From Aurantiochytrium sp. KH105 (taxonomy: Eukaryota; Sar; Bigyra; Thraustochytrida; Thraustochytriidae), in NCBI GenBank assembly GCA_003116975.1, contig BGKB01000176.1, positions 1 to 64,000 on the forward strand: a DNA stretch of 64,000 nucleotides. Reading direction: 5' to 3'. Position numbers and translations under genes: made by a program. Position 1 is the first letter of the stretch, and each line of letters starts with the position of its first letter. The notes below the pieces were generated by a model, which made no database searches, had not been told where the DNA came from, and saw nothing but the letters and a program-made list of their open reading frames with translations. Positions 59,163-64,000 of this stretch are shown here, one piece after another.

Positions 59163-61508
59163 CTATTGCGCGGGAGTGAGATAGCTCGTTGGGACAAGGC
59201 CATAACGATCGTCCTGGAACTTGACCTGGCACCAGCCATCCTCGCCTTGTTCCATAACCTGACACACCTCACCAGCCTGCGCTGGGACTTCGTCGGGATT
59301 CGCGCCGGATGGCGCAAAATTGTACACAACATAGGCGTACACTGCAGCTTGAGCCTGAGCAGGTGGCGCCGGAGGGGGGGCTCGCTTCTTGGGTTTCTTC
59401 TTAACCTTCTGCACACCAGGATCGACCCACGTCGACTCGCCCGTGTCCATGTTATAGTAGTAATTGGTCTGATACTCTTCTGAGAACATGGTGACCCAGG
59501 GTGAGGCTTCTTCCTCCTGAGCAGGGGGCGGGCCCAAGGGCAAGGGTGGGGTATTCGCAACGCGAGCTTGCATCGGGGCTCCGCCCGAACCCGAAGAGGC
59601 AGAAGCCGCAGCAGCAGCCGCAGCAGCAACGCCTCCGCCGCCGCCTCCACCAAAACCGCCGCCGCCACCACCACCACCAAAACCACCGCCGCCACCACCG
59701 CCGCCGCCGAAACCACCGCCGCCACCGCCAGCGCCTCCTCCACCGCCGCCACCGCCGCCGCCGCCAGTCTTGGGCGCGACCGTCTGCACATTGCTACCGA
59801 AGAGAGACGAGGGATGCACGCCATCACGAACCATGGAGTTCTCCACTGCACCTTGCGGCAATCCCGCTTTTTGCATTCGTTCGTATTTGCCCATATCTGG
59901 ATGATCAGAAGGCAAAAGCTCCAGATTATCGTCAGCACTGCTGGCAGAAGGAGCCCCACCGCCGCCTCCACCGCCTTCTGTGCCAACCTTGGGCCACTTT
60001 TTCGCGGGAGGCTTGCTCGAAGCTGCGGGAGTGGGCGCACCACCACCGCCGCCACCGCCGCCGCCACCGCCGCCACCACCAAAGAGACCAGCCAGGGCAG
60101 CATGCCTATCGGCAATAGCGCCAGAAAGCTTTACAGAAGCCGGATGACTTGTGGCAGCAGGCGTCGACGCTGCGCCGCCGCCGCCACCGCCGCCGCCGCC
60201 GAAGATGCCCGCAATTGCAGCTTGCCTTGCAGCAATGCCACCACCCCCAAGCTTGACAACGGGTTCTTTGGCGGGTGCAGGCTTCGAAGCCGCTGCTGCA
60301 CCGCCACCAAAGATTCCTGCGAGTGCCGCCTGCTTTGACCTGATGCCTGTGGCGACATGGCGATGCTCCTCGGGCTCTGGCTCGGGATCCTTCTCCACGG
60401 ATTTGTGGCCGCCTCCCGAAAACATTGCGCCAAGAGCACGAAAGGATTTGCGGATTGAACGAGCACCCGATGAACGCTTGCTCGCGGCCGGTTTGGCAGG
60501 AGGCGCAGGTTTGCTCGCGGCAGGTTTTACAGGAGGCGGAGGTTTGCTCGCTGCAGGCTTGGCGGGAGGCGGAGGTTTGCTCGCCGCTTTCGCAGGAGGC
60601 GGCGGTTTGCTTGCCGCCTTGGCGGGAGGCGGAGGCTTGCCGGCGGCCTTGGCAGGGGGAGCCGGCTTGCTCGGCTTGCTCGGCTTTGTCGGTGCTGCAG
60701 CAGCACCGTCGCCAACGCCAGGCGCCGGAGCCATCGTCATCGTGTCTTGACCAAAGACGGACGAAGGATGCACGCCATCTCGAATCATCGAGTTCTCGAC
60801 TGCACCTTGTGGGAGACCAGCCTTCTTCATGCGCTCGTACTTGCCCAAATCGGGATGCGAAGGATCCACCACCTCGAGACCTTCGACAAAGTTGCCATCT
60901 GCGCCGCCAGCGTCTTGGTCTACTTCTTCTTCCTCCTCAAAGTCTTCCTCTGCGTCCGTTTCTTCAACTTCGGCAGGAGGAGGTCGTACCGGAGGAGGCG
61001 GCTTGGCGACTGGGGCAGCCGGCTTGTTGCGAGGCGGGGGCTTGGGCTTGCCCTTTGGAGGCGCTGGTGGCTTGACGATACGGGTTGACACGGGTCGCGC
61101 CCGAGGCGGGACAGGCGGCTTTTCGGAGACCCGCGGCAGTGCTGGCGGCTGAGGCGGAAGGTCAGCCTCTGCCAAGGCCTCGGCCTTCATGGACTCGACG
61201 CGCTCCTTGGACGCGCCCTTTGGCGGTGCAGGGGGCACGGGTTTTGTCCTGGTGATGCTCGGCTTGCGCAGCGACTTGATGGACTTTTTCATAGACTTGG
61301 TCTTCTTCGCCTTGGGACCTTTCCCGGACCCTGATCCAAGCGTCCGTGGTTCGGGCCATCCCTCCGGCAGATGGCCGTACTTGGTAAAGACGGCCTCTGC
61401 GATCTCCATAAACGTCCACCGCTCGAATAGAGGCTGCACATTCTTGACGCGCGAGGGGTCAACCTCCTCGTAAAAGGCCTCAAGCTCTGCCACCGACTTC
61501 TCGCTCAT
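59163..61508 (-). CDS. WW- and SH3-domain adaptor with proline-rich and WASHC3-like motifs
   Basis: Predicted 781 residues. Order: a conserved N-terminal helical segment (ELEAFYEEVDPSRVKNVQPL); basic and proline-rich regions (SKPPPPAKAA repeats); a motif LGKYERMKKAGLPQGAVENS with a DGVHPSSVFG end (about 212-250), resembling the WASHC3/CCDC53 motif; three ...QAALAGIFGGG-type segments followed by polyglycine; a second copy of the WASHC3-like motif (532-570); more polyglycine; a WW domain (667-697, NYYYNMDTGESTWVDP); and a C-terminal SH3 domain (723-781, VYNFAPSGANPDEVPA ... YGLVPTSYL). This suggests a scaffold linking proline-rich ligands to actin regulators. The start is ATG 61508. It is adjacent to, and possibly downstream in transcription from, the riboswitch-bearing gene. 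Confidence 0.85.
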   Translation of the reverse strand: MSEKSVAELEAFYEEVDPSRVKNVQPLFERWTFMEIAEAVFTKYGHLPEGWPEPRTLGSGSGKGPKAKKTKSMKKSIKSLRKPSITRTKPVPPAPPKGASKERVESMKAEALAEADLPPQPPALPRVSEKPPVPPRARPVSTRIVKPPAPPKGKPKPPPRNKPAAPVAKPPPPVRPPPAEVEETDAEEDFEEEEEVDQDAGGADGNFVEGLEVVDPSHPDLGKYERMKKAGLPQGAVENSMIRDGVHPSSVFGQDTMTMAPAPGVGDGAAAAPTKPSKPSKPAPPAKAAGKPPPPAKAASKPPPPAKAASKPPPPAKPAASKPPPPVKPAASKPAPPAKPAASKRSSGARSIRKSFRALGAMFSGGGHKSVEKDPEPEPEEHRHVATGIRSKQAALAGIFGGGAAAASKPAPAKEPVVKLGGGGIAARQAAIAGIFGGGGGGGGGAASTPAATSHPASVKLSGAIADRHAALAGLFGGGGGGGGGGGGGGAPTPAASSKPPAKKWPKVGTEGGGGGGGAPSASSADDNLELLPSDHPDMGKYERMQKAGLPQGAVENSMVRDGVHPSSLFGSNVQTVAPKTGGGGGGGGGGGAGGGGGGFGGGGGGGGGFGGGGGGGGFGGGGGGGVAAAAAAAASASSGSGGAPMQARVANTPPLPLGPPPAQEEEASPWVTMFSEEYQTNYYYNMDTGESTWVDPGVQKVKKKPKKRAPPPAPPAQAQAAVYAYVVYNFAPSGANPDEVPAQAGEVCQVMEQGEDGWCQVKFQDDRYGLVPTSYLTPAQ

Positions 61509-62670: not shown

Positions 62671-62930
62671 AATTGGTTTTGATTTTCTCGAGATCATCAA
62701 GACGCACATGGCGCAAAAGGGCGAGAGATTGTTGTACCAGACAAGGAAAAAGGACATCGACAAAGTCTTGACGTTCTGGCGCCATGGATATGGATGATCG
62801 AATGATTGATTTCGGAAAAAAAGAAATGAAAAAGGACATTGAAAATTGATTTTGTTTTCTCGAGATCGTCCAAACGCACGTGGCGCAAAAAGGTGAGAGA
62901 TTGTACAGTCAAGGCAGAAGGACATTGCTC
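62671..62930 (-). repeat. two diverged direct copies of a 90-base element
   Basis: 62671-62760 and 62844-62930 share long matches, including TTTTCTCGAGATC and TGGCGCAAAA, and GAGAGATTGT. Both lie just past the riboswitch on the same strand, so they may be part of the 3' UTR or poly(A) region. Confidence 0.8.
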
Positions 62931-63046
62931 TACTCGCTGCGCTGACCAGACAGTCCCTTGAGAGAAAAAAAGACGCCATGAAGACATCGATCTCAAGAGA
63001 CGTATCGGCCAGATGCCGCAGCAGCAGCAGAAGCGAGCGCCCCACC

Positions 63047-63121
63047 TACTCCCTTCGCAAGAATTACCAATCTGATCAGGTTCAAAGGGTTTGATCTCAG
63101 CGACACTAAGTCGCACCCCCG
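63047..63121 (-). promoter_or_regulatory. TPP (thiamine pyrophosphate) riboswitch aptamer
   Basis: Read on the minus strand, the sequence carries the ordered THI-element consensus: GGGGGTGC (63120-63113), a P3 hairpin GCGAC-TTAGT-GTCGC, CTGAGA (63100-63095), ACCC (63091-63088), TTTGAACCTGATC, GGTAAT and TTGCGAAGGGA (63060-63050). The CTGAGA and GAACCTGAT segments form the pyrimidine and diphosphate pockets in known TPP riboswitches. The short P3 resembles eukaryotic forms. The P1 closing stem looks weak. It begins about 190 nt past the stop of the folate-receptor-like gene and on the same strand, hence probably in its 3' UTR, where plant THIC also carries one. It should repress or reroute expression when TPP is abundant. 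The WW/SH3 gene start is about 1.5 kb further on and is a less likely target. Confidence 0.92.
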
Positions 63122-63313
63122 ACCTTGACTGCAAAAACATTTCACATCCGCGCAAGTGGTGCGCTTCGAAACGATGCGAGCTGGCTAAATCGCTTGGCTG
63201 ACCGGCGGAAGAGACCACGCATGCAAACACGCGTAGCGTTAATCCGCTCGCGGCAGCCCTGCATGCGAACCTATCTCGCGTTCCTGAAGGAACGTTGGGA
63301 GAGAGGACGCAAT

Positions 63314-64000
63314 TTAGGCGAGACCAACGTTGCGGTCACCATTGACAGAGGACGGCGTGGGCTCCGGGCCGTTTTCGCCAATCTTGTCAAAGTTTTCGGG
63401 GGCAAAGACGGGCTTGCCCATGCGCTCGCGGCGAATGAGCAGGCACGACCAGCAGGCCGCAAGGAAGGCGGCCACCGAGAGGACCACAATGGCAACGATA
63501 GCGCCGGTAGAGAGCTTCTCCTTCTCCTCCTCGACCTCGGGGGTCAGCGACGGGCACGAGAACCAGTTGCCAGAGACCTCACCGTCGTCATCCTTGCAGG
63601 TGATAAAGAGGTCGTTCTGGCAGGCCTCGAACCAGGAGTCGCAGTAATCGGCCTGGATGGGCATCTTCTCCATCTCCCACTGGTTAAAGTCGGGGTTGCC
63701 GGTGTGGTCCTCGTGCGGGGCGTACTTGCGGAAGAGACCAGCGTTGACGTCGCACTCGTAAAAGCAGTACTCCTGCACGAAGAAGCGCTCGCACTGCTGG
63801 CTCAGGGTCTGGCAGCGGTTCCAGTTGAACTCAGCGCCGTAGGCCTCGCGCATGTACTCGGGGCTCTGGACAATGTCGGGCGTGCAGCACGAGTTGTCGT
63901 TCCACGGGTGGCACTCGGGCAGCTGGCGGTCCGTCTGGGGCACGTCGTGGCTGTAGTCGTCGTACTGGAGGTGGCACACGTCCGTGTTGCTGTAGTCCTC
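63314..64000 (-). CDS. folate-receptor-like (FOLR family) type I membrane protein, 5' partial
   Basis: The last 228 residues are in the window; the frame is still open at the right edge. The visible part matches the folate receptor/riboflavin-binding family: CHPWNDNSCC, then FNWNRC, QQCERFFVQEYCFYECD, and YCDSWFEACQNDLFITC with spaced Cys that form conserved disulfides. A single membrane helix (AIVAIVVLSVAAFLAACWSC) and a 40-residue cytoplasmic tail follow, so it is membrane anchored rather than GPI linked. Animal members bind folates. Given the TPP riboswitch about 190 nt after the stop, this one more likely binds thiamine or a precursor for uptake; that is inference. The signal peptide lies outside the window. 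Confidence 0.87.
   Translation of the reverse strand, partial: EDYSNTDVCHLQYDDYSHDVPQTDRQLPECHPWNDNSCCTPDIVQSPEYMREAYGAEFNWNRCQTLSQQCERFFVQEYCFYECDVNAGLFRKYAPHEDHTGNPDFNQWEMEKMPIQADYCDSWFEACQNDLFITCKDDDGEVSGNWFSCPSLTPEVEEEKEKLSTGAIVAIVVLSVAAFLAACWSCLLIRRERMGKPVFAPENFDKIGENGPEPTPSSVNGDRNVGLA

Follow-up and report, generated by a model that had tools for sequence, protein, structure and literature searches.

TPP aptamers in connection with FOLR-type genes have been published for prasinophytes, rhizaria and diatoms (PMC4260697, PMC9544697). In Micromonas, the PF03024 gene ATS1, which has a riboswitch, showed an 80-fold rise without thiamine (PMC4260697, McRose 2014), and according to the available text of that paper 3' UTR TPP aptamers are present in several Micromonas and at least 14 of its riboswitch genes seem unspliced (PMC4260697). 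The FOLR genes of the diatoms Halamphora and Fistulifera also carry TPP aptamers, and the authors propose receptor-mediated thiamine uptake (PMC9544697). The initial annotation of the DNA studied here had mentioned, in general terms, FOLR-TPP pairs in marine algae, and ATS1 of Micromonas (PMC4260697) and the genes of the two diatoms (PMC9544697) show that this was correct. For the TPP riboswitches of plants and fungi the precedent is splicing (PMC5882874, PMC7390266). Those of the fungal urea-transporter genes are intronic, and in them an alternative partner near the 5' splice site competes with the local P1 (PMC5882874). Among the labyrinthulomycetes, the broad group that includes the thraustochytrids, a riboswitch has been described for SSSQ of Aplanochytrium kerguelensis, a sodium:solute symporter gene (PMC4260697). 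The locus described here bears on how 3'-UTR TPP aptamers could work in protist genes without evident introns, in a setting where B1 supply is thought to be limiting for marine protists.

The locus described below lies on the minus strand of a stretch of 64,000 nt from Aurantiochytrium sp. KH105, and this whole stretch is referred to as the window. The locus resembles ATS1 in that a TPP aptamer is tied to a folate-receptor-family gene; however, Micromonas is a green alga in which the gene's thiamine response was measured, and the available text on it, figures and supplement aside, describes for ATS1 neither a long-range P1 nor an additional hairpin nor a 17-nt element (PMC4260697). It resembles the diatom genes in that a gene with a FOLR domain has a putative aptamer in its 3' UTR, and differs from them in its SLC19 partner, which the available text on the diatoms does not mention (PMC9544697). 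With the fungal urea-transporter genes it shares the combination of an uptake gene and long-distance pairing of a P1 strand (PMC5882874), but here P1 itself is long-range and the 3' region that contains it has no clear splice sites. With SSSQ it shares the labyrinthulomycete host and a putative uptake function (PMC4260697), but the gene is a different one: sodium:solute symporter (SSF) genes carry TPP riboswitches in other protists, yet none of the three SSF places of the present genome, on contigs C145, C67 and C319 (L033-L035), coincides with a TPP match (0/3). FOLR genes carrying TPP aptamers, and a labyrinthulomycete riboswitch in another gene, were already known (PMC4260697). An SLC19-linked TPP riboswitch or the present architecture is unreported in the full-text literature searched (most subscription journals, figures and supplements lie outside it), and within that scope four features are new: the SLC19 link, the long-range P1 around an extra hairpin, the 3-nt P5 insertion and the 17-nt element.

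Results

Based on a covariance-model search, minus-strand positions 63130-63032 matched RF00059 over the whole model with 45.6 bits (E 9.7e-8 for the 601 nt searched, and E 2.9e-6 when calculated for the 76-Mb genome). Because this score is under the gathering score of 54.3, scanning the window against Rfam at default settings gives no hit. All aptamer elements that had been read from the letters were found in order on the minus strand, namely GGGGGTGC from 63120, CTGAGA, ACCC, GAACCTGATC, GGTAAT and GCGAAGGGA ending at 63050, and the full-length match, though under the gathering score, bears out the observation of a TPP aptamer. The modelled aptamer pairs were standard at 17 of 17 positions in 4/4 sequences, and the CUGAGA, GAACCUGA and GCG motifs, which we take to be the TPP contacts, were invariant in all four aptamers of the genome, together with P2, P3, P4 and P5. 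In the alignment to the RF00059 consensus P3a is absent from the window aptamer, and the family's local P1 directly behind P4 is missing, three of the five pairs at that place being non-standard. The exact string of the P5 insertion (Table 1) was absent from viral and prokaryote contigs, one scan each, which has no bearing on other eukaryotes. Folded in isolation by energy, the aptamer did not give the aptamer shape (z -0.43). A proof of covariation from the aptamer pairs alone was dropped, as one pair had changed on both sides and 423 of 500 shuffles reached as high a value.

Table 1. Positions of the features of the riboswitch locus in the window
Feature	Positions	Strand	Basis or remark
Folate-receptor-like gene, 3' part (PF03024), one open frame	63314..64000	minus	stop codon TAA 63316-63314
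Proposed donor-like GT, reads GTTCGC	63269..63270	minus	weak, unsupported
5' arm of long-range P1, UGCAGUCAAGGU	63122..63133	minus	contains acceptor-like CAG
TPP aptamer core (P2, P3, CUGAGA, P4, P5, GCG..GGGA)	63050..63120	minus	RF00059 45.6 bits; pair check
3-nt insertion AUU in P5, at the boundary of the third and fourth pair	63069..63071	minus	common to the four aptamers of this genome
Extra long hairpin (P6), flanked by P4 and the distal P1 strand	62916..63046	minus	predicted folds
3' arm of long-range P1, GCCUUGACUGUA	62904..62915	minus	pairing tests
AACAAA, poly(A)-signal-like A-rich stretch	62851..62856	minus	starts 12 nt before the 17-nt element; putative function
17-nt element TTTCAATGTCCTTTTTC	62828..62844	minus	genome-unique to the four riboswitch loci

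The gene upstream of the aptamer is folate-receptor-like, as had been proposed: the whole protein of 315 aa scored 98.2 bits against PF03024 (cut-off 29.8) and its window part 86.1 bits, the ATG lying outside the window at contig position about 64261. The protein has a signal-peptide-like start, then a FOLR domain and, towards its C terminus, a single transmembrane stretch followed by a short tail; the hydropathy windows that reveal this stretch start at residues 248-260. The copies of the protein on two contigs differ by one residue. The distance of about 190 nt given earlier between stop codon and aptamer also holds, with 193 nt from the TAA at 63316-63314 to GGGGG. In an alignment to folate receptor alpha, the Asp of FIQD is replaced by Glu and the Trp-Arg-..-Arg of SWRKER by Phe, Asn and Glu; in folate receptor alpha these residues are presumably folate contacts. 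The predicted receptor structure had a mean pLDDT of 29.3 and was set aside. PF03024 was found at six places in the genome, five of them above the cut-off, and two of the six, the C176/C3 pair, had a TPP match, while the eight loci comprising the four other FOLR, two TPK and two TMP-TENI places gave none at E up to 5. At locus L013 (1-2742), one of the other PF03024 places and without a TPP match, the folate-receptor-type domain is fused to a domain of the C-type lectin kind, and by eye the tail of the protein resembles a membrane helix.

Genome-wide, four RF00059 matches were obtained at E 0.001 or better (45.6-45.9 bits), in a search that scored 49 of 1,986 first-look candidates and may therefore miss weaker aptamers. 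The pattern CTGAGA-N0..30-ACCCNNNGAACCTGA occurred at four places in 76 Mb, which are the same loci, and its reversed control at none. The four loci represent a FOLR gene and an SLC19-type carrier gene, each on two contigs (C176, which is the window, with C3, and C239 with C191). In BLAST between the pairs (E 1e-5) the sole match was a 92-nt aptamer stretch (82.6%). Four-fold sites differed within the pairs at 6/136 and 16/275 (4.4% and 5.8%), which suggests that the members of a contig pair are haplotypes or copies from two subgenomes; the four loci therefore count as two independent genes. The FOLR, SLC19, TPK and TMP-TENI matches are paired across contigs, the pattern of a diploid or hybrid assembly whose copies were left unmerged.

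The bases before the core pair with a distant downstream strand, forming a perfect helix of 12 bp in the FOLR gene (partner strand 205 or 207 nt on) and of 16 bp in the SLC19 gene (151 or 154 nt on), with the same pre-core start base in both genes. Aligned from this anchor, 12/12 pairs were standard in both genes, five having changed on both sides, two on one side and five being unchanged, in a comparison that used distal strands already picked as best partners; with the alignment slid by 1-4 bases, 2-7 of 12 pairs were standard. Among natural positions sampled from the window and L005-L007, which can include the aptamer loci themselves, anchored helices of at least 12 bp were found at 92/19,955 and of at least 16 bp at 15/19,955. 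When the downstream stretch was dinucleotide-shuffled, a duplex energy as low as that of P1 was reached by 11, 1, 0 and 0 of 1,000 shuffles. In natural window sequence 863 of 2,482 were at or below C176 and 188 of 2,482 at or below SLC19, and as the duplex energy is thus ordinary in natural sequence it was dropped as support for P1; we rely on the unbroken anchored helix and the covariation.

The P6 hairpin was predicted at all four loci, its sequence differing between the FOLR and SLC19 genes. In the predicted fold the pair probabilities of P1 without ligand are near 1 save for the end pairs, and the shape with aptamer and P1 exceeds the free minimum by 8.8-12.9 kcal/mol. Five changes between copies fall in predicted P1, P6 or aptamer pairs, and pairing is kept in four, which is too few to weigh. 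In terms of pairing potential, the long-range P1 closes the aptamer and P6 together and so places the aptamer within one strand of a long hairpin. As the prediction has P1 paired even without ligand, P1 may serve as a scaffold instead of a switch.

Further downstream, about 53-68 nt past the P1 duplex, both genes have the 17-nt element, which lies 276 or 278 nt after the core start in the FOLR gene and 236 or 239 nt after it in the SLC19 gene. It was first spotted by eye in an alignment and tested afterwards: at 0 and at 1 mismatch it occurred at four places in the 76-Mb genome, all of them riboswitch loci (control 0), and in 2,000 shuffles of the downstream regions of both genes the longest common string was 15 nt. 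An ATTAAA starts 20 nt before the element in the SLC19 gene. From aptamer to element the FOLR copies differed at 4/193 and over the next 300 nt at 91/276, the latter counted in an alignment that was forced across a large indel, whereas the SLC19 copies showed no conservation drop past the element (10/154 before vs 27/283 after, p 0.37). A conservation drop was rejected as a general mark of the mRNA end, as it is seen in FOLR only and the pooled figure masked SLC19 (14/347 from aptamer to element, 0/34 in the element and 118/559 in the following 300 nt, gap columns left out). Pairing of the element with the aptamer or the upstream UTR was also rejected because the energies are ordinary, 29 to 126 of 200 shuffles being as low; one SLC19 copy has such a helix, likewise of ordinary duplex energy. 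The sequence data are consistent with an element that may mark the mRNA end. In the FOLR 3' region there is also a 62-nt direct repeat (82%; 62671-62732 and 62843-62904), with degenerate partial copies of the 17-nt element near it at 62743-62759 and 62911-62927, and the presumed FOLR 3'-end module seems to be duplicated in tandem.

One PF01770 gene was detected in the genome, at two places, and the aptamer is present at both (2/2). Its SLC19-type protein scored 89.7 bits (cut-off 27), and the nearest solved chains are the human thiamine transporters 2 and 1 (2.5e-11), with the folate carrier somewhat behind (1.1e-9). Human SLC19A2 and SLC19A3 are of the same family, but distant, and we know of no riboswitch in animals. 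Of the SLC19A3 thiamine contacts Glu32, Tyr113, Glu110, Asn297 and Glu320 (PMC11447181), the carrier appears to keep four and has Gln for Glu110, the alignment score being no more than -0.1 bits in the section with Asn297 and Glu320; at other contact positions Phe56 is replaced by Trp and Trp59 by Asn. Folate specificity of SLC19A1 has been assigned to Arg133 and Gln377 (PMC9794768), which, via Glu120 and Met384 of SLC19A3, correspond to Thr and Ser in the carrier, the second-half alignment being weak.

Five families of B1 synthesis were sought (HMP kinase, thiazole kinase and ThiG lie outside this set), and thiamine pyrophosphokinase was present with 118.2 bits. No match in the genome was obtained for ThiC or for THI5/NMT1, the same searches being positive in 13/14 and 12/14 control genomes, respectively. 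The TMP synthase (TMP-TENI) search gave two partial matches of 27.8 bits, the one tested being a nitronate monooxygenase (180.7 bits), and the Thi4 search 11 short N-terminal matches, of which the best, the sole one tested, is an amine oxidase. Since only thiamine pyrophosphokinase was clearly found among the five families, import followed by phosphorylation is the likely B1 route, without de novo thiamine synthesis, and this fits the thiamine requirement reported for several thraustochytrids (PMC12734794). Because the gene set suggests that thiamine is not made de novo, we regard the FOLR and SLC19-type genes as putative B1-uptake genes.

Discussion

The reading we prefer, to which we would give about an even chance, is that of a working TPP riboswitch on B1-uptake genes that acts at the mRNA 3' end. 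As part of this whole explanation, and with the same evenly divided confidence, the window element would be a TPP riboswitch that is divergent in its build and belongs to the 3' UTR of a gene from the folate-receptor family. Plentiful TPP would bind the aptamer core, and the bound core would alter the formation of the mRNA 3' end at or near the 17-nt element, or the stability of that end, so that less receptor and carrier would be made; when B1 is scarce, both would rise. The receptor-like protein would bind thiamine or a precursor and pass its ligand to the SLC19-type carrier. We infer that 3'-end formation or mRNA stability is the best candidate mechanism for control by TPP. A more detailed picture, in which a B1-requiring eukaryote has a regulon of a thiamine-binding surface receptor and an SLC19 carrier, with the aptamer in one strand of a 3'-UTR hairpin and the 17-nt element as a non-splicing readout, is less likely than not and should be taken as tentative.

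Characterised eukaryotic TPP riboswitches act by alternative splicing (PMC9544697), and control of this kind had been proposed in the initial annotation. As in plant THIC and fungal genes, TPP would then alter the use of splice sites in the 3' region, and the spliced messages would be unstable; the donor could be GGUAAU inside the P5 loop, with the junction after its first G, or the unusual GT upstream. All four aptamers contain this GGUAAU (+53 or +56), and an acceptor-like CAG stands ahead of the core. The letters named as splice sites, TTTTTGCAG ending at 63129 and a GT at 63270, do exist, but they found no support as sites. A GTRAG donor is absent from all four sequences between the stop codon and 200 nt beyond the 17-nt element, where weaker GTRA sites are present; no acceptor with at least 11 pyrimidines in 15 is common to the FOLR and SLC19 genes; and the CAG of the proposed acceptor lies within the long-range P1 helix, with pair probabilities near 1. 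The splice-site feature of the plant THIC type was not found by the rule used, under which weaker sites are possible. Both coding regions, moreover, read as single open frames. Control by splicing appears unlikely, and the proposal is not supported in the form in which it was made.

It is slightly less likely still that the aptamer binds TPP or once did while regulation has been lost, its conservation reflecting another role of the 3' region. A precedent exists in the diatom THIC gene, whose conserved 3' TPP aptamer failed functional tests and gave no thiamine response, as the available text reports (PMC9544697). The unliganded folds, which disfavour the aptamer shape, point in the same direction, and so does the stretch from stop codon to aptamer, which differs between copies at 6/300 and is about as conserved as the core (p 0.27). 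Against loss of regulation stand the core, which is among the least changed non-coding parts (1/177, gap columns left out, vs 22/411 at four-fold sites, Fisher p 0.004), and the retention of the device by two unrelated genes whose P1 helices show compensatory changes. That the P1-P6 hairpin would be a target of a double-strand RNA nuclease, with TPP gating the cutting and hence mRNA decay, is very improbable: the long hairpin is predicted at 4/4 loci with most P1 pairs near probability 1 without ligand, but its sequence is unconserved between the genes and the 17-nt element would be left unexplained.

Returning to the riboswitch acting at the mRNA 3' end, the aptamer, the distal P1 and the genome-exclusive 17-nt element, found together in two unrelated uptake-type genes, offer a concrete candidate for an expression platform. 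The second uptake-type gene, SLC19, ties folate-receptor-family proteins to B1 and adds weight to the proposal that eukaryotes have a thiamine receptor. Taken from the sequences, this suggests that the microbe tunes its vitamin B1 uptake through direct RNA sensing.

As to the surroundings of the two genes, the next gene downstream of the FOLR gene (59163-61508, minus strand) encodes a proline/glycine-rich protein of 781 aa with WW and SH3 domains and a match to CCDC53 (WASH subunit). Convergent with the SLC19-type gene (L006, 5249-8908, minus strand) lies a gene for a 1220-aa protein with ApbE, fumarate-reductase-type FAD-binding and FAD/NAD oxidoreductase domains.
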